From Erysipelotrichaceae bacterium (GTDB lineage Bacteria; Bacillota_I; Bacilli_A; Erysipelotrichales; Coprobacillaceae): a DNA stretch of 47,805 nt. The translations under genes were made by a program, and so were the position numbers. The stretch is from NCBI GenBank assembly GCA_017633115.1, contig JAGBPZ010000017.1:1-47805 (forward strand), in the 5' to 3' direction. This document shows, in pieces, positions 22,028 to 30,690 of the stretch. Positions within the stretch are counted from its first letter, which is position 1, and each line of letters begins with the position of its first letter. The notes under the pieces are model-generated. The model was not told the DNA's origin and did not search any database. It saw only the letters and a program-made list of their open reading frames with translations.

Positions 22028-22738
22028 ATGAAATATTCCATTTTAATTGCAGAAGATGATGAAAGTATCGTTGATTTATTGACGCTTTACCTTCAGGATT
22101 CTTATGACATCTATAGTGCCAACGATGGTCTTGAGGCACTGGAAGTCCTTAAAAATAATGACATAGATCTAGCTCTTGTTGATATTATGATGCCACGACT
22201 AAACGGCTATGAACTAATTGAACGTATTCGTGAACACAACAATATGCCAATTATTGTAGTATCAGCTAAAGTTATGGGACCAGATCGTATCAAGGGTCTT
22301 GATTTAGGTGCTGATGCTTATATCACAAAGCCATTTAATCCATCAGAAGTTGTCGCTTATGTGAATGCCACATTGCGTCGTTACCATAAACTAGGTAATT
22401 TTGAGAAGAACGAACATGAATCAAAATTCCTGCATGTAGGTGAAATCAGTCTTGATACCGATAATCATATCGTCATCAAAGGTAACCAACAGAAATCACT
22501 GACATCAGCTGAATATAAGATTCTCCATGCCTTGATGAAGACACCAGGTAAAATCTATACCAAAAAACAATTATATGAATGCATCAATGGTGATTCTTAT
22601 CTCAATGATGATAATACGATCATGGTGCATATGTCTAACTTAAGAGGCAAGGTGGAAGATAATCCATCTAAGCCAGAATACATTAAAACTGTGAGAGGAA
22701 TAGGATACAAAATAGAAGATGTTCAAAAAGAAGAATAA
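22028..22738 (+). CDS. OmpR/PhoB family response regulator
   Basis: 236 residues. The receiver domain has E9-D10-D11, phosphoacceptor D52 (LVDIMMP) and K101 (ITKPF). The winged helix (about 135-232) includes TKKQLYECINGD and YIKTVRGIGYKIE. It overlaps the histidine kinase gene by 20 nt, so the two are cotranslated. The start is set by CGGAGG upstream. A clostripain-type protease and hydrolase-fold genes follow in the same direction. Confidence 0.97.
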   Translation: MKYSILIAEDDESIVDLLTLYLQDSYDIYSANDGLEALEVLKNNDIDLALVDIMMPRLNGYELIERIREHNNMPIIVVSAKVMGPDRIKGLDLGADAYITKPFNPSEVVAYVNATLRRYHKLGNFEKNEHESKFLHVGEISLDTDNHIVIKGNQQKSLTSAEYKILHALMKTPGKIYTKKQLYECINGDSYLNDDNTIMVHMSNLRGKVEDNPSKPEYIKTVRGIGYKIEDVQKEE

Positions 22739-24323
22739 GAGTTTAATCACGACGTGGGTCGTCTTCTTCATTGTTGGCTCTTTGGTTATCTTTGGCATAT
22801 TTCTGTTGAGTATTTATGCATTCCAGCTTTATTACCTCAGCTACTATTCTTCTATTAGTGATATCGTTAAGTATGAATCAAAACTGAAGAATGATGATTT
22901 TATCAACATTCCTATGCAGAAATACCGTAACAGTGCCATCATCGCTTTCGGGGAGAAAAATGAAGTGCTGTATACCAGTGACGAATCACTGCGAGAATCG
23001 GTCAAAGCAGAAGATCTATGGCTGATCAAAAATGAAGATGGCAGTATGTATTATAATGTCTACAGTGATGCCAATGTTGCTGGTAACAGTTTGATCGTTT
23101 TAGTTCGACAAACCAACGATGGACCAATCACCAGTGATTACTGTATAGTTGATAAGAATTTAAATGTCATTTCTGGCTCACTATTCTCCAGTGTGTCAAA
23201 ATTGACACAGCATCAGCTGAATCTGATTGAAGGCACTTTTAAAAAGTCAACCAATGAAACGATGGATATCGCTAAATACGAATATCTCAATGGTAAAGGC
23301 GAACGTCGTACGATTGTCTTTGTGAGTCCATATTTTGACTCGACAGAATATGATGCGTTAGTTCGACGTTCATGGGTTTTCCTGCCAATACCAATCATAT
23401 TAGGTATTGCTTTCATTTTGTTCATGACCTACTTGTTTAACCGACGTCTTAAAGCTTCTGTTCATCCTGTTTCTGAAGCCATTGTCAAATATGGTCAGGG
23501 TGAATCAGAAATGCTTGATGCAGTCGGTATCTACAGTGAATATGAAGAAATTATCGACAGTTTCAGCTCATTGATGCAGGAACTTGAAGAAAGCAACCGC
23601 GCTAAAGTCAAGGCGGAAGAAGAACGTCATCGTGCAATTGCGAATATTTCCCATGACTTAAAAACACCATTGACAGTCATTCAGGGTTATGCCCGTGCCA
23701 TTATCGATGGTATTGTCCCTGAAGAAAAACGTGATGATTATTTGGAAACAATCTACAATAAAGCCATTTATTCATCAGAAATGATGGATACATTGCTGGC
23801 ATATACAAAAATGGATTATCCAGAATATTCCTTACATCTGAATGTGGTTGATTTTAATGAATTTTGTCGTGAATATCTGGCATCTAAATATGCGGATATT
23901 GAATTTGCAGGATTTGAATTCCATCCATCAATTGATGAAGAACCATTGATGGACGCAATTGATGTCAACCTGATGATTCGCTGCTTTAATAACCTGATCG
24001 ATAATTCACTAAAATATAATGAACCAGGAACAGGTATTTATTTTAAAGTTACTCAGGAGGAGAATCATATTATAATTAATGTTGCGGATGATGGTATCGG
24101 TATTAATGCGGATATCAGAGACCGTATATTTGAACCATTTGTAACCGAAAACAATGCGCGTACACCAGGTAAGGGTACGGGTCTTGGTATGACGATTACA
24201 AAGACGATTATTGAACTTCATGGCGGCACGATCCATGTAGTCAATCATCCAACACTTGGTAAAGGCGCTGAATTTGAAATCAGCCTGCCAATCATAACAG
24301 AAATCAATAATGGCAAAGCATAA
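22719..24323 (+). CDS. Sensor histidine kinase, partner of the upstream regulator
   Basis: 534 residues: membrane segments at about 10-33 and 219-240 enclose an extracellular sensor region of about 185 residues. HisKA has H312 in NISHDLKTPLTV, and the HATPase has NNLIDNSLKYNEPG (N-box), VADDGIGI and GKGTGLGMTI. It begins within the response regulator gene and is followed after 23 nt by the clostripain-type gene, so surface proteolysis could be part of its output or its signal; that link is inference. Confidence 0.96.
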   Translation: MFKKKNKSLITTWVVFFIVGSLVIFGIFLLSIYAFQLYYLSYYSSISDIVKYESKLKNDDFINIPMQKYRNSAIIAFGEKNEVLYTSDESLRESVKAEDLWLIKNEDGSMYYNVYSDANVAGNSLIVLVRQTNDGPITSDYCIVDKNLNVISGSLFSSVSKLTQHQLNLIEGTFKKSTNETMDIAKYEYLNGKGERRTIVFVSPYFDSTEYDALVRRSWVFLPIPIILGIAFILFMTYLFNRRLKASVHPVSEAIVKYGQGESEMLDAVGIYSEYEEIIDSFSSLMQELEESNRAKVKAEEERHRAIANISHDLKTPLTVIQGYARAIIDGIVPEEKRDDYLETIYNKAIYSSEMMDTLLAYTKMDYPEYSLHLNVVDFNEFCREYLASKYADIEFAGFEFHPSIDEEPLMDAIDVNLMIRCFNNLIDNSLKYNEPGTGIYFKVTQEENHIIINVADDGIGINADIRDRIFEPFVTENNARTPGKGTGLGMTITKTIIELHGGTIHVVNHPTLGKGAEFEISLPIITEINNGKA

Positions 24324-24346
24324 AATCATTAGTAGAAAGGAGAACA

Positions 24347-26671
24347 ATGATGAGTGCACCAAGAAGCAGAGAAAAACATGTCACCAATAATAGTAAAGGT
24401 GTCGCTAAAACCGGTAGTGGCACACATGGTGGTAAAGTAGGATCAGGCGGCTATTTTGAAGGTGGCGGCAAAGGGTCACAGCGTGCCGGTGGTACGACCC
24501 GTAGTCCAATCAGCATTATTATTATCATTATCGCATTGCTGTTTGGTGGTGGTGGAGGACTGTTCTCAAGCATGTCAAGTAACAGTATGCCATCAACCAC
24601 AACAACTAATTTGAATGGTGCAAGCGGCAGTTCCAGAGGCTGGCGTTTAGGCAATAATACCGGCAATCTGAATACATCAATTGTTGGTGGTACCCGCAAG
24701 AAATACACAACACTTAAAGGTAATGGTAAAGATGAAATGACATTGATGGTCTACATGTGTGGTACAGACCTTGAATCAAGAAGTGGTATGGCTACATCTG
24801 ATCTTAATGAAATGCTCAAAGCAACCACTACAAACAGTAAACTTCATATTCTCGTTTACACCGGTGGCTGTGCACGTTGGAAAAACAACGTCATCAGCAG
24901 TTCTTATAACCAGATTTATGCGATTGAAAATGGTAGATTTGTCACTAAAGTAAATAATGATGGCGCTAAGGCTATGACATCACCATCAACTCTGACTGGT
25001 TTTATTAACTGGTGCAACAAGAATTATCCAACATCTAATCGTAAAGCTTTGATTTTATGGGATCATGGTGGAGGTTCAATCAGTGGTTATGGTTATGATG
25101 AAAAATATCGAACCAGTGGCACGATGACACTGTCAGCCCTTCAGAAAGCATTAAAAGCAACCAATACAAAATTTGATTTTATTGGTTTTGATGCCTGCCT
25201 GATGGCAACCGTTGAAAACGGCTTGATGCTTAATGATTTTGCCGACTATATGATTGCCAGTGAAGAAACAGAACCAGGTATTGGCTGGTATTATACAAAC
25301 TGGGTCAGTCAGCTCAATAAAAATACATCAATCAACACCCTTGAATTAGGTAAGATGATTGCTGATGATTTCGTTGCTAAATGTGCAACATCATGTGCTG
25401 GTCAGTTAACAACGTTATCAGTTGTTGACTTGGCAGAACTTGCGGCAACAGTACCTGATGTCTTTAAGAATTTTGCAGCAAGTACTCGTTCAATGATTTC
25501 TAATAGTCAGTATAAAACCGTCTCATCTGCCCGCAACAATGCCAGAGAATTCTCACGTACCGCAAGAGTTGATCAGATTGATTTAGCTGACTTTGCAACG
25601 ATCCTTGGAGAAGATGAAGGTAAAGAGTTAAGTGATGTATTGTTGAGTGCAATCAAGTATAACAAGACATCAGCCAATATGACAAATGCTTATGGTCTTT
25701 CTGTTTACTTCCCATATACCAAAGTCAATAAAGTTGATACGATGGTCAATACTTATAAAGCTATTGGTATGGATGCTGAATACACAAAATGTATCCAGGA
25801 ATTTGCCAAAGTAGAAGTCACTGGACAAGCCGCTTCACAGTCAACTGGTAATCCTTATCAGTCACTCTTTGGCAATAATACATCACCATCACAATCTACG
25901 ATGACTGAGCAGGCAATTGAAACCTTGCTGCAAAGCTTCCTGACAGGCAACTATGGAACATTGAGTGGTTACTCATCTAGTAATTCACACTTCCTGACGG
26001 GTCGCAGTATCGATGATGAAACAATAGCTAATTATGTTGCTGAGAATCAGTTTGATACTTCTGAATTACAGTGGAATGGCACTTCAATGAAGCTGTCAAA
26101 AGCTAACTGGGAACTTGTTGAAGGATTAGAGCTCAACATGTTCTATGATGATGGTGAAGGCTATATCGAGTTAGGTCTTGATAATATTTATGATATTGAT
26201 GGTCGTACCTTAAAAGGCAGTGATGATCGCACATGGCTTGCTATTAATGGTCAACCAGTTGCCTACTATCACACTCAGACCTTTGAAGATGGTGACAACT
26301 ATACAATTATGGGTCGCGTTCCATGTCTGTTGAATGGTACTAGAGTTGATTTGATTCTGATTTTTGATCAGGATAATCCACATGGATATATCGCTGGTGC
26401 CCGCTTAGACTATGGTAAAAAAGTCGATACTCAGGCACGTGGTTTGATCGAACTGCAAAAAGGCGACAAATTAAAATTCTTATGTGATTACTACTCTTAT
26501 GATGGTGATTATATTGATACTTACTATTTAGGTGAAACCATGCGCGTCACCTCAAAGATGGAAATCTCTAATGTTGATGTTGGTGATGGAGATGTCTTTA
26601 TCTCTTATCGTTTCACTGATTTGTATAATAATCACTTCTGGACACCAGCATTAACACTGTCAAAACAATAA
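24347..26671 (+). CDS. Clostripain family (C11) cysteine protease, membrane-anchored
   Basis: 774 residues. A Gly/Ser-rich cytoplasmic N-terminus leads to one membrane helix (about 54-66, Ile-rich), so the catalytic part faces outward. The C11 domain starts near 128 (DEMTLMVYMCGTDLESRSG), with catalytic H240 (LILWDHGGG) and C284 (GFDACLM). A C-terminal region of about 290 residues has no family I can name. The start may be ATG 24347 or 24350; AAAGGAG fits both. Clostripains cut after Arg, and self-activation is usual. The gene follows the two-component genes closely. Confidence 0.95.
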   Translation: MMSAPRSREKHVTNNSKGVAKTGSGTHGGKVGSGGYFEGGGKGSQRAGGTTRSPISIIIIIIALLFGGGGGLFSSMSSNSMPSTTTTNLNGASGSSRGWRLGNNTGNLNTSIVGGTRKKYTTLKGNGKDEMTLMVYMCGTDLESRSGMATSDLNEMLKATTTNSKLHILVYTGGCARWKNNVISSSYNQIYAIENGRFVTKVNNDGAKAMTSPSTLTGFINWCNKNYPTSNRKALILWDHGGGSISGYGYDEKYRTSGTMTLSALQKALKATNTKFDFIGFDACLMATVENGLMLNDFADYMIASEETEPGIGWYYTNWVSQLNKNTSINTLELGKMIADDFVAKCATSCAGQLTTLSVVDLAELAATVPDVFKNFAASTRSMISNSQYKTVSSARNNAREFSRTARVDQIDLADFATILGEDEGKELSDVLLSAIKYNKTSANMTNAYGLSVYFPYTKVNKVDTMVNTYKAIGMDAEYTKCIQEFAKVEVTGQAASQSTGNPYQSLFGNNTSPSQSTMTEQAIETLLQSFLTGNYGTLSGYSSSNSHFLTGRSIDDETIANYVAENQFDTSELQWNGTSMKLSKANWELVEGLELNMFYDDGEGYIELGLDNIYDIDGRTLKGSDDRTWLAINGQPVAYYHTQTFEDGDNYTIMGRVPCLLNGTRVDLILIFDQDNPHGYIAGARLDYGKKVDTQARGLIELQKGDKLKFLCDYYSYDGDYIDTYYLGETMRVTSKMEISNVDVGDGDVFISYRFTDLYNNHFWTPALTLSKQ

Positions 26672-26677
26672 TATCAA

Positions 26678-26713
26678 AGGGGTAGCTTTAAACTGCCCCT
26701 CTGATTGCAGGGG
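26678..26713 (+). promoter_or_regulatory. Mutually exclusive hairpins controlling the next ribosome site
   Basis: AGGGGTAG (26678-26685) can pair with CTGCCCCT (26693-26700). The same CCCCT (26696-26700) can instead pair with AGGGG (26709-26713), the ribosome site of the 26723 gene. No T-run follows either stem, so translation control or RNA processing is more likely than termination. Confidence 0.45.
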
Positions 26714-26722
26714 ACTCTATTA

Positions 26723-27532
26723 ATGAAAAAACAAACAATGCCTCATGGCAAACTATATAAGGGTTCTGAACAGAATGTCATCATTGTACTTGTGCGACGA
26801 CGTTTTCGTCATGAAATGTGTCGTTACCTAGTCAAGCATGGTATTTCGGCATTCGCAATGGACATTGATCTGCCCCTCGCAAAGGCATCAATCGATGATC
26901 TTGAAGAAGTCTGTGCTTTCTTGAAGCAGACATATAGTCAAATTGGATTGCTTTGTTTTGAAACTTATAGTGTTTATGGTCTTTATGGTGCAACAGTATG
27001 TCCGGATATCAGTCTGGTTGTGGCATCATTGCCAATGGACCGTGTCTTTGAAAGCTTAAAACTGGGACAATCCATGTTGTCCTATCGTGGTGAAGATGTA
27101 CCTTATCAATCAATGGGAATGGATGCTCAGGAATTGCATCACTTACATCATTTTTACTCACGACGCTTTCATCACAACCGTTACATCGAGGTCTATGAAT
27201 TTGCTTTGCTGAAGACTGAAGCAGCAGGTCTCATTGATTGTCATCAAATCAATGGTGATTTATATCTGTTTTCTAGTGCAGATGATGTTTATTGGAACAG
27301 TCGTGAAGCTTGTCGCCGTATTAAGAAACAATTGATTGCCAATAACTTTAAGAGACGTTTCAAGCATGTTCTGTATAAACGTGGCGCCCATGATTTAATG
27401 CCACTTGAGGTTTATAATCGTGGAGCGAGCTTGCTGAGTCATCCTGATCAAGCAACTCAGGGCAGTCGCCAGGACTTTGGTGAACAACTTGAAGCCATTT
27501 TAGATGATTGGCTTGAAGCAGGACGTTTTTAA
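26723..27532 (+). CDS. Alpha/beta-hydrolase-fold protein (BAAT C-terminal-like) without nucleophile serine
   Basis: The start is ATG 26723, 9 nt after AGGGG; the frame upstream runs without a ribosome site. The 269-residue product resembles the acyl-CoA thioester hydrolase (BAAT) C-terminal domain: IGLL-CFETY-SVYGLYGA aligns with the nucleophile elbow (normally GISKG), so the Ser is replaced by Glu80. An Asp (FSSADDVYWN) and a His (RGAHDLMP) at the other catalytic positions remain. It is followed by two more hydrolase-like genes. Classical esterase activity is doubtful. Confidence 0.75.
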   Translation: MKKQTMPHGKLYKGSEQNVIIVLVRRRFRHEMCRYLVKHGISAFAMDIDLPLAKASIDDLEEVCAFLKQTYSQIGLLCFETYSVYGLYGATVCPDISLVVASLPMDRVFESLKLGQSMLSYRGEDVPYQSMGMDAQELHHLHHFYSRRFHHNRYIEVYEFALLKTEAAGLIDCHQINGDLYLFSSADDVYWNSREACRRIKKQLIANNFKRRFKHVLYKRGAHDLMPLEVYNRGASLLSHPDQATQGSRQDFGEQLEAILDDWLEAGRF

Positions 27533-27603
27533 AGATTTTTAAGTGTGTTTGTTGTATAATACAGTTATGATAATGATACATATTAAGAAAAGGAGGGAAC
27601 AGA

Positions 27604-28467
27604 ATGGCTTATCGCATTTTTACTGTCAATGAAGACGGTTTTCTGGCCTATATGGTTTTGCCAGAACAACGTGCTAAACTGGCAGTCATCATGATGTTTG
27701 ATGGCGATGTACAATTACCAGCCACTGATATTGTGCGTTATTTGTCTGATTTAGGCTATATTGGTGTCTATCTGCCACTCTATGGTGGCCGTGGCCAGTC
27801 ACGTACACCAAACTGTATCCCGCTTGAATATGTCGAAATGGCAGTTGGCTATTTGCGCCAACGCCTCAATGTTCAAAAAATTATTCTTTATGGCATGGGC
27901 CTCGGTTCAGTTTTTGCCTGTTATGGCGCTTATTATCTTGAAGATGTTGATGGTGTGATAATGGTATCACCAACACATGTCAATTATTCAGGTGTTGGTT
28001 CAAGACGTCGTCAGACTGGCCATTCGCTTGTGACCTATAAAGGAGAAGAATTACCTTACCTTACAGTAGACTTTAAAGTCAGTCATCAGTTCGATGCTTT
28101 TAATAATGCTTACTGGCATTTTAAAGAAGAAGAAATGGCTCTTTTGCCAATCAGCAAACTAAAGTCAAAAATTTTGATCCTGGCATCTGATTCTGATGAA
28201 GTCTGGCCAGCTGCTTATTCATTGAAAAAGATGGAGTACCAGCTGAAAGATGATTTATACCCATACGCCTATAGGACGCATATCTTCCATAATGCCAGTC
28301 ATTATATTGGACTGTTCCCAGAAACCAATGATGTGAGACGTTATTTACGTCAACAGCTTGTAACATCGAATACGGAACGTCGTCATCGCAAGATATGCAA
28401 TCAAGCCCGAGATGAATCGGCAACAATGATTTATGATTTCTTTAATGAAATCATTTCTGATGAATAA
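27604..28467 (+). CDS. Alpha/beta-hydrolase-fold protein (BAAT C-terminal-like), nucleophile replaced by Gly
   Basis: A 287-residue paralogue of the previous gene and closer to the family: LPLYGGRGQSRTPN, then the elbow ILYGMGLGSVFA (97-101 G-M-G-L-G, where the family has G-x-S-x-G), MVSPTHVNYSG, LILASDSDEVWP (Asp) and HNASHYIG (His). Only the serine is missing. AAGGAGGGA precedes ATG 27604, and a TATAAT (27555-27560) in the 71-bp gap may give it an extra promoter. A short inverted repeat (28475-28492) follows. Confidence 0.82.
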   Translation: MAYRIFTVNEDGFLAYMVLPEQRAKLAVIMMFDGDVQLPATDIVRYLSDLGYIGVYLPLYGGRGQSRTPNCIPLEYVEMAVGYLRQRLNVQKIILYGMGLGSVFACYGAYYLEDVDGVIMVSPTHVNYSGVGSRRRQTGHSLVTYKGEELPYLTVDFKVSHQFDAFNNAYWHFKEEEMALLPISKLKSKILILASDSDEVWPAAYSLKKMEYQLKDDLYPYAYRTHIFHNASHYIGLFPETNDVRRYLRQQLVTSNTERRHRKICNQARDESATMIYDFFNEIISDE

Positions 28468-28474
28468 ACTATAA

Positions 28475-28492
28475 AAAGTAGGGCACTACTTT
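28475..28492 (+). terminator. Weak terminator-like hairpin
   Basis: AAAGTAG (28475-28481), loop GGCA, CTACTTT (28486-28492); no long T-run. Confidence 0.45.
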
Positions 28493-28504
28493 CCGCCTGC
28501 ATTA

Positions 28505-28533
28505 TAGACAAATGTAACGGAAAACGTTATAAT
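28505..28533 (+). promoter_or_regulatory. Promoter of the third hydrolase-like gene
   Basis: TAGACA (28505-28510), 17 bp, TATAAT (28528-28533). AACG-GAAAA-CGTT lies in the spacer and -10. The leader (28540-28698) contains a hairpin TATGCCC...GGGGCATA. Confidence 0.6.
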
Positions 28534-28698
28534 AATCTTGCTGCAGATGCCACGCCATAATAATAATGTGGATATGCAGTATGGGGTATGCCCTGGTGGT
28601 GCGGGGCATAGAAGGATGAAAACGGGAATTCGTGGAACTTTGATGTTAGGAGGAGGCATCTTAGTTTCACGTTTTCTTTTGTACGAAAGAGGGACACT

Positions 28699-29430
28699 AT
28701 GGAGATTACAACATATGCAGCCAATCAACCAGTGTTGCTGCTGATTGATGGACTAGTCAGCTTTGAGCATGTCATCACCTATTTACGTGCTGATTTCCAT
28801 ATTATTGAGGTGCATGTTGATGGCAATCGTGTTGATGAAAACATTGTTGAGCTCGAAGAATACATCAAGGACCATTGTGCAGGTCATGTTGACTATGCCT
28901 ATGGAACGGATATGGGTGGCCATATATTGATGAAACTTTGTGCGCGTCAACAAGTCCATATTGATCAGGCGGTATTTGGCTCTATCAATGCTAAAAATCA
29001 TAGTCGTTTCGTTAGTTCTTGTATTATTTTCTGGATGTTGCTTATTTATGGCCATTTAGTCAAGAAAAAAAGATACCCATGGTGGTATCGTCTCTTTCAT
29101 AGACAGTCCAGTCGTGCCCGCAGACAATATAATGAACGTTTAGCATTATTGATGCTTGGTCATTTTGGTGATCAGTATAATGATTTGAAATCACTTCTGA
29201 AGTGGCATTTCACAAGCTCCTGGCCAGCATCTTTCACTACCGATACCAAACTTCATTTCTTCTGGTCAATGAAAATGGGAGCCCGTTATCCCCGCCGCTA
29301 TATCAAACAGTTTGCTCATCTTGGCCTGGTCATGATGAATCAGTACCAGGAAGAAATGCTGGTGGTGTATCCAATGCGCTGGGTTCAGTTTTTAAAGAAT
29401 ACATTTGATCCAAAATCTATACCCGTATAA
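28699..29430 (+). CDS. Divergent alpha/beta-hydrolase-fold protein with Asp at the nucleophile position
   Basis: 243 residues. The strand VDYAYGTDMGGHILM carries G69-T-D71-M-G at the nucleophile elbow, so Asp stands where Ser is usual; Asp nucleophiles occur in haloalkane dehalogenases and epoxide hydrolases (GxDxG). Beyond this the similarity is low: a hydrophobic stretch CIIFWMLLIYG and a basic region KKKRYPWWYRLFHRQSSRARR follow. The acid and His are not obvious. It starts at ATG 28699 after GAGGGAC and has its own promoter. Confidence 0.68.
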   Translation: MEITTYAANQPVLLLIDGLVSFEHVITYLRADFHIIEVHVDGNRVDENIVELEEYIKDHCAGHVDYAYGTDMGGHILMKLCARQQVHIDQAVFGSINAKNHSRFVSSCIIFWMLLIYGHLVKKKRYPWWYRLFHRQSSRARRQYNERLALLMLGHFGDQYNDLKSLLKWHFTSSWPASFTTDTKLHFFWSMKMGARYPRRYIKQFAHLGLVMMNQYQEEMLVVYPMRWVQFLKNTFDPKSIPV

Positions 29431-29971: not shown

Positions 29972-30409
29972 ATGAAAACAATCAAAAGACTAGCTCGTTT
30001 GCTGATGATAGTCGCATTTGTCTTCACAATTGTGGGATGTAAGGAGAAGAGCACACCATCTGCAATCACTGAAGATGGTACTTATACATCAAAAGAAGAT
30101 GTAGCCTTGTATTTGCACACCTACAATCATCTGCCAGACAATTTTATCACTAAGAAGCAGGCACAATCATTAGGCTGGCCCGGAGGCGGTCTGGATGGCT
30201 ATGCTGATGGTAAATGTATTGGTGGTGACCGTTTTGGTAACTATGAAGGACAGCTGCCAAAGAAAAGTGGGCGTCAATATTATGAATGCGATATTGATAC
30301 CCTTCATCAAAGCAAACGTGGCCCTAAACGTATTATTTATTCCAATGATGGACTGATTTATTATACAGAAGATCATTATAAAACCTTTGAACAGTTATAT
30401 GGAGATTGA
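29972..30409 (+). CDS. Barnase-type ribonuclease with lipoprotein signal
   Basis: 145 residues. A basic and hydrophobic leader ends in the lipobox IVGC (Cys23), so the mature enzyme should be lipid-anchored outside the membrane. The rest follows barnase closely: HLPDNFITKKQAQSLGW, KCIGGDRFGNYEGQLP, SGRQYYECDIDT, and RIIYSNDGLIYYTEDHYKTF. Catalytic residues correspond to E105, R120 and H135 (barnase E73, R87, H102), and K61 and R101 are also kept. It cleaves single-stranded RNA. The barstar gene follows 2 nt later. Anchoring differs from free, secreted barnase. Confidence 0.95.
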   Translation: MKTIKRLARLLMIVAFVFTIVGCKEKSTPSAITEDGTYTSKEDVALYLHTYNHLPDNFITKKQAQSLGWPGGGLDGYADGKCIGGDRFGNYEGQLPKKSGRQYYECDIDTLHQSKRGPKRIIYSNDGLIYYTEDHYKTFEQLYGD

Positions 30410-30411
30410 TT

Positions 30412-30690
30412 ATGAAAGTGATTGATATTGATTTAAAAAATGTAACGACTACTAGAGGCTTTCATCGTGTTGTCAAAAAAGGGCTGCAGGCACCTGATTA
30501 TTATGGTTATAATCTTGATGCTCTTTATGATGTTTTGACGACGATCAATGAAGAGACACAAATAGTTTTTCATAATTTCAAGGTTATTAAGGCCAATTTG
30601 CCAGATTTAGCTGACACACTTGAAGGATTACTACTTGATGCAACAGAAGAAAATGATAATCTGGAAATTATCACAATTGATGGAGAATAA
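30412..30690 (+). CDS. Barstar-type ribonuclease inhibitor
   Basis: 92 residues from ATG 30412, chosen because GGAG (30401-30404) is 7 nt before it; a TTG at 30406 would overlap the barnase stop. The YYGYNLDALYDVL stretch is the barstar helix that blocks the barnase active site, with Asp and Glu further on. No signal peptide, so it stays in the cytoplasm and protects the cell from unexported barnase. It is second in the operon, as expected for an immunity gene. Confidence 0.95.
   Translation: MKVIDIDLKNVTTTRGFHRVVKKGLQAPDYYGYNLDALYDVLTTINEETQIVFHNFKVIKANLPDLADTLEGLLLDATEENDNLEIITIDGE

Follow-up and report, generated by a model that had tools for sequence, protein, structure and literature searches.

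Hydrolases of the BAAT_C family (Pfam PF08840), to which the type-I acyl-CoA thioesterases ACOT2 and ACOT4 belong, carry a nucleophilic serine or cysteine within a G-x-S/C-x-G elbow together with a catalytic aspartate and histidine. Single pseudo-hydrolases are known, mainly from plants and animals. RsbQ keeps a complete Ser-His-Asp triad. Epoxide hydrolases and dehalogenases that use an aspartate as nucleophile also need a histidine, and the epimerase BotH has the hydrolase fold. The gibberellin receptor GID1 has the α/β-hydrolase fold but no enzyme activity. It is thought to have arisen when an active hydrolase lost one residue of its triad, with the pocket reused for the ligand, and in D14 and KAI2 the hydrolase fold serves signal perception (PMC3531792). 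The NDRG family comprises catalytically inactive α/β-hydrolase proteins with regulatory roles (PMC12132217). An incomplete search of the literature found nothing relevant on bacterial hydrolase sets that lack the serine.

The genes considered here lie in a window (the whole 47,805-nucleotide stretch of DNA that was analysed) corresponding to contig C94 in the draft assembly (2.0 Mb) of a gut-type Erysipelotrichales bacterium, whose genus is represented in our comparison set by this genome only. Between positions 22028 and 29430, six genes on the + strand encode a response regulator, a histidine kinase, a clostripain-family protease and three proteins that we term orf4 (26723..27532), orf5 (27604..28467) and orf6 (28699..29430). 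For orf4, translation more likely starts at the ATG at 26723, which has an AGGGGA ribosome site, than at the TTG at 26705. Further along the window, at 29972-30690, a gene for a Barnase-like secreted ribonuclease (PF00545) is directly followed by one for a barstar inhibitor (PF01337). Searches of the window with defence-system and phage libraries returned no matches.

All three proteins are assigned to the α/β-hydrolase fold. Both orf4 (28.8 bits, E 1.6e-6) and orf5 (43.9 bits, E 3.8e-11) match BAAT_C above its curated cut-off of 20.9, and orf5 is further assigned by an identity of about 32% with its subfamily and by its position in the tree. Although orf6 has no Pfam match, it shows homology (E about 1e-22) to Ser-bearing abhydrolases with the motif YG-x-S-L-GG, including a paralogue on contig C54 of the same genome. 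AlphaFold models built with relatives reached pLDDT 90.1 and pTM 0.90 for orf4, and pLDDT 86.1 and pTM 0.84 for orf6, which adopts the α/β-hydrolase fold. The best PDB folds found by Foldseek for orf4 are human ACOT4 and ACOT2. For orf6 the best is the hydrolase 4rpc (TM 0.80), followed by esterases, the plant hormone receptors D14 and KAI2, RsbQ, epoxide hydrolases and BotH.

The original prediction for this locus was that three successive hydrolase-fold proteins have each lost the nucleophilic serine, with the first two retaining the aspartate and histidine, and the alignments bear out both statements. The elbow reads LLC-F-E80-T-Y in orf4, YG-M-G99-L-G in orf5 and YG-T-D71-M-G in orf6, so that the serine is replaced by Glu80 (codon GAA, 26960..26962), Gly99 (GGC, 27898..27900) and Asp71 (GAT, 28909..28911), all encoded on the + strand. 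In the alignment to relatives, these residues fall exactly in the nucleophile column, and the two available models agree: Glu80 of orf4 sits at the elbow between strand 73-79 and helix 82-92, and Asp71 of orf6 between strand 63-70 and helix 72-83. More than 200 relatives, together with the models, rule out a serine located elsewhere in the fold or a misaligned motif. We also considered a single-base sequencing error and rejected it, because neither Glu nor Asp can be reached from the serine with fewer than two base changes, and because the oxyanion loops and one histidine are altered as well; one base change could suffice only for Ser to Gly in orf5.

The G-x-S/C-x-G nucleophile typical of BAAT_C hydrolases is thus absent from orf4 and orf5, and the catalytic aspartate and histidine are present in both (Asp188 and His223 in orf4, Asp198 and His233 in orf5), in columns that are invariant in alignment A5. 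In orf6 the near-invariant catalytic histidine is replaced by Gln217 (codon CAG, 29347..29349, + strand). Serine and histidine are therefore both gone, which separates orf6 from Abhydrolase_1-like enzymes; it also differs from the Asp-nucleophile epoxide hydrolases and haloalkane dehalogenases, in that the aspartate is there but the histidine is not. The oxyanion region is affected in every member of the trio: orf4 has lost the oxyanion loop and the loop after β4, the orf5 motif has changed from MGGEQSL to MFDGDVQ, and orf6 has lost the GTCC oxyanion loop and is shortened by loop deletions.

Relatives of the trio keep the serine almost without exception, and the loss is therefore real and specific to this locus. 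In the order, 71 of the 74 BAAT-type sequences and 49 of the 51 orf6-type ones retain the serine, counts that include a few cases of the same gene fetched twice; the five exceptions are orf4, orf5, orf6 and one protein each from genomes G059 and G027. When named genomes were scanned with the orf5 subfamily, 79 loci emerged, mainly from Lachnospiraceae, Ruminococcus and Oscillospiraceae, and all 105 hydrolases with a covered elbow carry the serine (68 orf5-type, 19 other BAAT and 18 orf6-type). One of the scan patterns covered the elbow but accepted serine or glycine, so that glycine variants could be retrieved. Among orf5-type relatives the serine is found in 79/79 covered sequences, and the aspartate and histidine in nearly all that are covered. 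Intact G-x-S-x-G motifs in relatives had been named as grounds for rejecting the prediction; here they mark the locus as derived and so support the loss. No close orthologues of the trio were found, and none of orf5 in 84,980 genomes, a set from which the home genome may be absent. As judged from the sequences, the co-occurrence of three Ser-less proteins is a real oddity of this locus and more than chance.

The two exceptional relatives, the only ones that a class-wide search for further Ser-less proteins of the orf4 and orf6 types returned, come from two other genera, are intact, and have glycine, not an acidic residue, at the nucleophile position. The G059 protein (L204:12058-12912) is of the BAAT type, reads GWGFGG and adjoins lipoprotein-like genes. 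The G027 protein (L051:9354-10133) is of the orf6 type, has lost both the serine (GLGHGG) and the histidine (SAQELL), and adjoins a homoserine-dehydrogenase-like gene. Their neighbourhoods are unrelated and offer no common context that hints at function.

The serine losses were originally described as three independent events. At least two are certain, as two different families are involved, and three are probable. The third is held at this strength because a sister relationship of orf4 and orf5 (a tandem duplicate with one loss), although the two are separated in the tree, is not rejected by the AU test (p 0.39). In the tree, three Ser-bearing relatives form a clade with orf5 (support 100/99), and orf4 groups with the Ser-less protein of G059 (support 94/85), both on long branches; two loop deletions are common to the latter pair. 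For orf6 and the Ser-less G027 protein, which have the motif SMKMGARYxRRY in common, the analysis neither resolves nor rejects a sister pair. The end branches of orf4, orf5 and orf6 (3.6, 2.3 and 3.7) exceed the median 10- to 20-fold (medians 0.23 and 0.17), whereas the genome's own Ser-bearing paralogues (0.40 and 0.73) have branches of near-normal length. These values fit an accelerated, gene-specific divergence of the trio, and such long branches are also compatible with relaxed selection.

The genomic contexts of the relatives point to the ancestry of this gene set. Another BAAT, orf6-type or ATC_hydrolase gene lies within 8 kb at 38 of 70 orf5-type loci in named genomes, many of which are on short contigs. 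At L290, orf5-type, orf6-type and BAAT genes stand in a row, and L261 and L248 are alike. Same-strand neighbours that recur beside trio relatives are ATC_hydrolase, ABC-transporter and membrane-protein genes; at L242, DUF6796 and ATC_hydrolase were identified. The resulting cluster of BAAT, orf6-type and ATC_hydrolase genes, which occurs in Lachnospiraceae, Ruminococcus, Oscillospiraceae and Erysipelotrichales, resembles the trio in combining the same two families on one strand. It differs in that all of its members keep the serine, and the trio lacks ATC_hydrolase, ABC-transporter and membrane-protein neighbours. For the arrangement in the window (BAAT, BAAT, orf6-type), the best reading is a derived copy of this Firmicutes hydrolase cluster, for which an incomplete literature search found no described function. 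Among the contexts surveyed, BAAT genes of the order stand directly 3′ of ATC_hydrolase (PF14196) at L039:523-2165, L043:11026-12590 and L045:14192-15835, a pairing that likewise seems to lack a described function, and at L168:576-2168 (G122) a Ser-bearing orf5-type hydrolase is fused to a C-terminal methyltransferase-like domain. The genome under study also carries Ser-bearing members of both families: a BAAT gene that adjoins ATC_hydrolase on contig C15, and on contig C54 the orf6-type paralogue, which adjoins a methyltransferase-like gene.

We consider it on balance probable that orf4, orf5 and orf6 are cytosolic pseudo-hydrolases of this descent, kept for ligand binding or regulation. They would descend from a Firmicutes cluster of acyl-ester/thioester-type α/β hydrolases and would have been kept in this lineage as a second, Ser-less set, with the Ser-bearing members of both families encoded elsewhere in the genome. 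With serine and oxyanion hole lost, the acyl-enzyme route is closed, and proteins so altered should be incapable of forming an acyl-enzyme. The substrate pocket, however, has most likely been kept, and the proteins could then act by binding a ligand, with the outcome that an acyl or ester compound is sensed, buffered or presented, or that the live paralogues, which would be the obvious candidate partners, are regulated. The original prediction had proposed a new role next to a sensor kinase and a surface protease. A genuine loss of the serine without gene decay does make a non-hydrolytic role the leading idea, and it is the partnership with the two-component system and the clostripain that finds no support.

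Two other accounts of the trio were weighed against such retention for binding. The genes might be relics under relaxed selection, drifting to loss after the ancestral pathway disappeared or passed to the live paralogues, as their very long branches, the joint disappearance of several catalytic elements, the shortening of orf6 by loop deletions and the lack of a conserved context around the Ser-less relatives could suggest. Yet the frames of all three genes are open, with plausible ribosome sites and a coding-type codon use like that of the neighbours (z 5.5-7.0). About 5% of point changes in these genes would create a stop codon, so that any of them drifting freely to 0.5 changes per site would almost certainly have its frame disrupted; open frames at the observed level of divergence thus imply selection for an intact protein during much of that time. 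Confident folds for orf4 and orf6, the aspartate and histidine still present in orf4 and orf5, and the integrity of Ser-less relatives of orf4 and orf6 in other genera likewise argue against decay. As far as sequences and models can tell, the trio is not recent wreckage and gives no sign of decay, and a recent relaxation of selection may be compatible with the intact frames; we regard the relic account as unlikely. Less likely still is a new chemistry on the old fold, in which Glu80 would act with the aspartate and histidine in orf4, the remaining aspartate and histidine would act in orf5, and Asp71 would serve as nucleophile or base in orf6. Acidic residues do stand exactly at the elbow in orf4 and orf6, the structural matches of orf6 include epoxide hydrolases and BotH, and orf4 and orf5 retain aspartate and histidine. 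Against this account, the histidine that Asp-nucleophile chemistry requires is gone from orf6, Ser-less proteins related to orf4 and orf6 have glycine and no acid at this position, and in each of the three proteins the oxyanion segment is missing or altered.

The earlier model, a single signalling or scaffold system made up of the two-component system, the outward clostripain and the trio, now appears very improbable. The genes concerned are a response regulator (22028..22738, +; Response_reg E 1.8e-28, Trans_reg_C E 1.3e-24), a neighbour of the trio; an adjacent sensor histidine kinase with HisKA and HATPase_c domains by Pfam (22719..24323, +), whose hydropathy indicates an outward sensor domain between two hydrophobic spans; and, also as a neighbour, a membrane-anchored clostripain-family (C11) protease (24347..26671, +; PF03415, E 1.9e-40) with WDHGGG and FDACLM motifs and a hydrophobic span near residues 47-77. 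The cytoplasmic tail of the protease (24347-24500) starts with a PRSREKxVT-type motif that is also found in the G027 orthologue and, loosely, in that of G051. A single system would be in keeping with the common strand, with the short gaps from response regulator to orf4 (a 20-bp overlap, 23 bp and 51 bp), with the failure to find a terminator between clostripain and orf4, and with the two-component systems that adjoin clostripain in G051 and G102 as well. However, of 316 genomes of the order, 107 encode clostripain homologues (orthologues 40-54% identical), and in the neighbourhoods inspected in 22 other genomes there are no trio-type hydrolases (0/22) and an adjacent two-component system in those two only, leaving 20 without. 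Conversely, the trio relatives sit in other clusters, and their 79 loci include four with even a distant response-regulator homologue and none with clostripain. The predicted locations also disagree: orf4, orf5 and orf6 show neither a signal peptide nor a clear membrane span, which would place them inside the cell, while protease and sensor domain would face outward. Finally, orf5 and orf6 are separated by 231 bp (28468-28698) that contain a promoter-like site (TAGACA-17-TATAAT, 28505..28533, +; 11/12 consensus positions), suggestive only, as the promoter scan in total returned hits at chance level. RNA from this gap is predicted to fold strongly (MFE -53.4, z -3.04) and could be a leader or small RNA; searches for such a structured RNA 5′ of orf6 gave no match in Rfam, and 316 genomes yielded no convincing homologue. 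It is possible that the first five genes share transcription, but the link of two-component system and clostripain to the trio is probably incidental. The most sensible treatment of these genes is as a module of their own, whose connection with orf4-orf5 would at most be a common transcript.

Cytosolic pseudo-hydrolases kept for binding or regulation can be compared with several described proteins. The type-I acyl-CoA thioesterases ACOT2 and ACOT4 belong to the same family as orf4 and orf5, which keep the aspartate and histidine, and the orf4 model is closest to them; orf4 and orf5 differ in lacking the nucleophilic serine and an N-terminal acyl-CoA thioesterase domain and in having a changed or missing oxyanion loop. 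RsbQ, D14 and KAI2 are among the structural matches of orf6 and, unlike it, have a complete Ser-His-Asp triad. With their intact frames and good folds, orf4, orf5 and orf6 would fit pseudo-hydrolases of the GID1 or NDRG kind that retain a role. NDRG proteins, though, are animal proteins of another subfamily, as opposed to three neighbouring bacterial genes drawn from two families of hydrolases, and GID1, of the plant HSL family, lost the histidine and keeps the serine, where the trio lost the serine. A GID1-like outcome, with the pocket kept, catalysis lost and binding reused, would therefore be the best-supported analogy of function and not one of membership. More tentatively, neighbouring hydrolases from two families may have become a ligand-binding or regulatory set beside active paralogues, a bacterial counterpart of GID1-type evolution. 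If so, three adjacent pseudo-hydrolases from two families, with Ser-conserved ancestry and live copies, would make a compact case of enzymes turning into binding or regulatory proteins, and the trio also points to a widespread gut-Firmicutes cluster of BAAT, abhydrolase and ATC_hydrolase genes. Set beside the systems described so far, what looks new here is a trio that appears to be a derived copy of this Ser-bearing cluster, with a live copy of each family elsewhere in the same genome.
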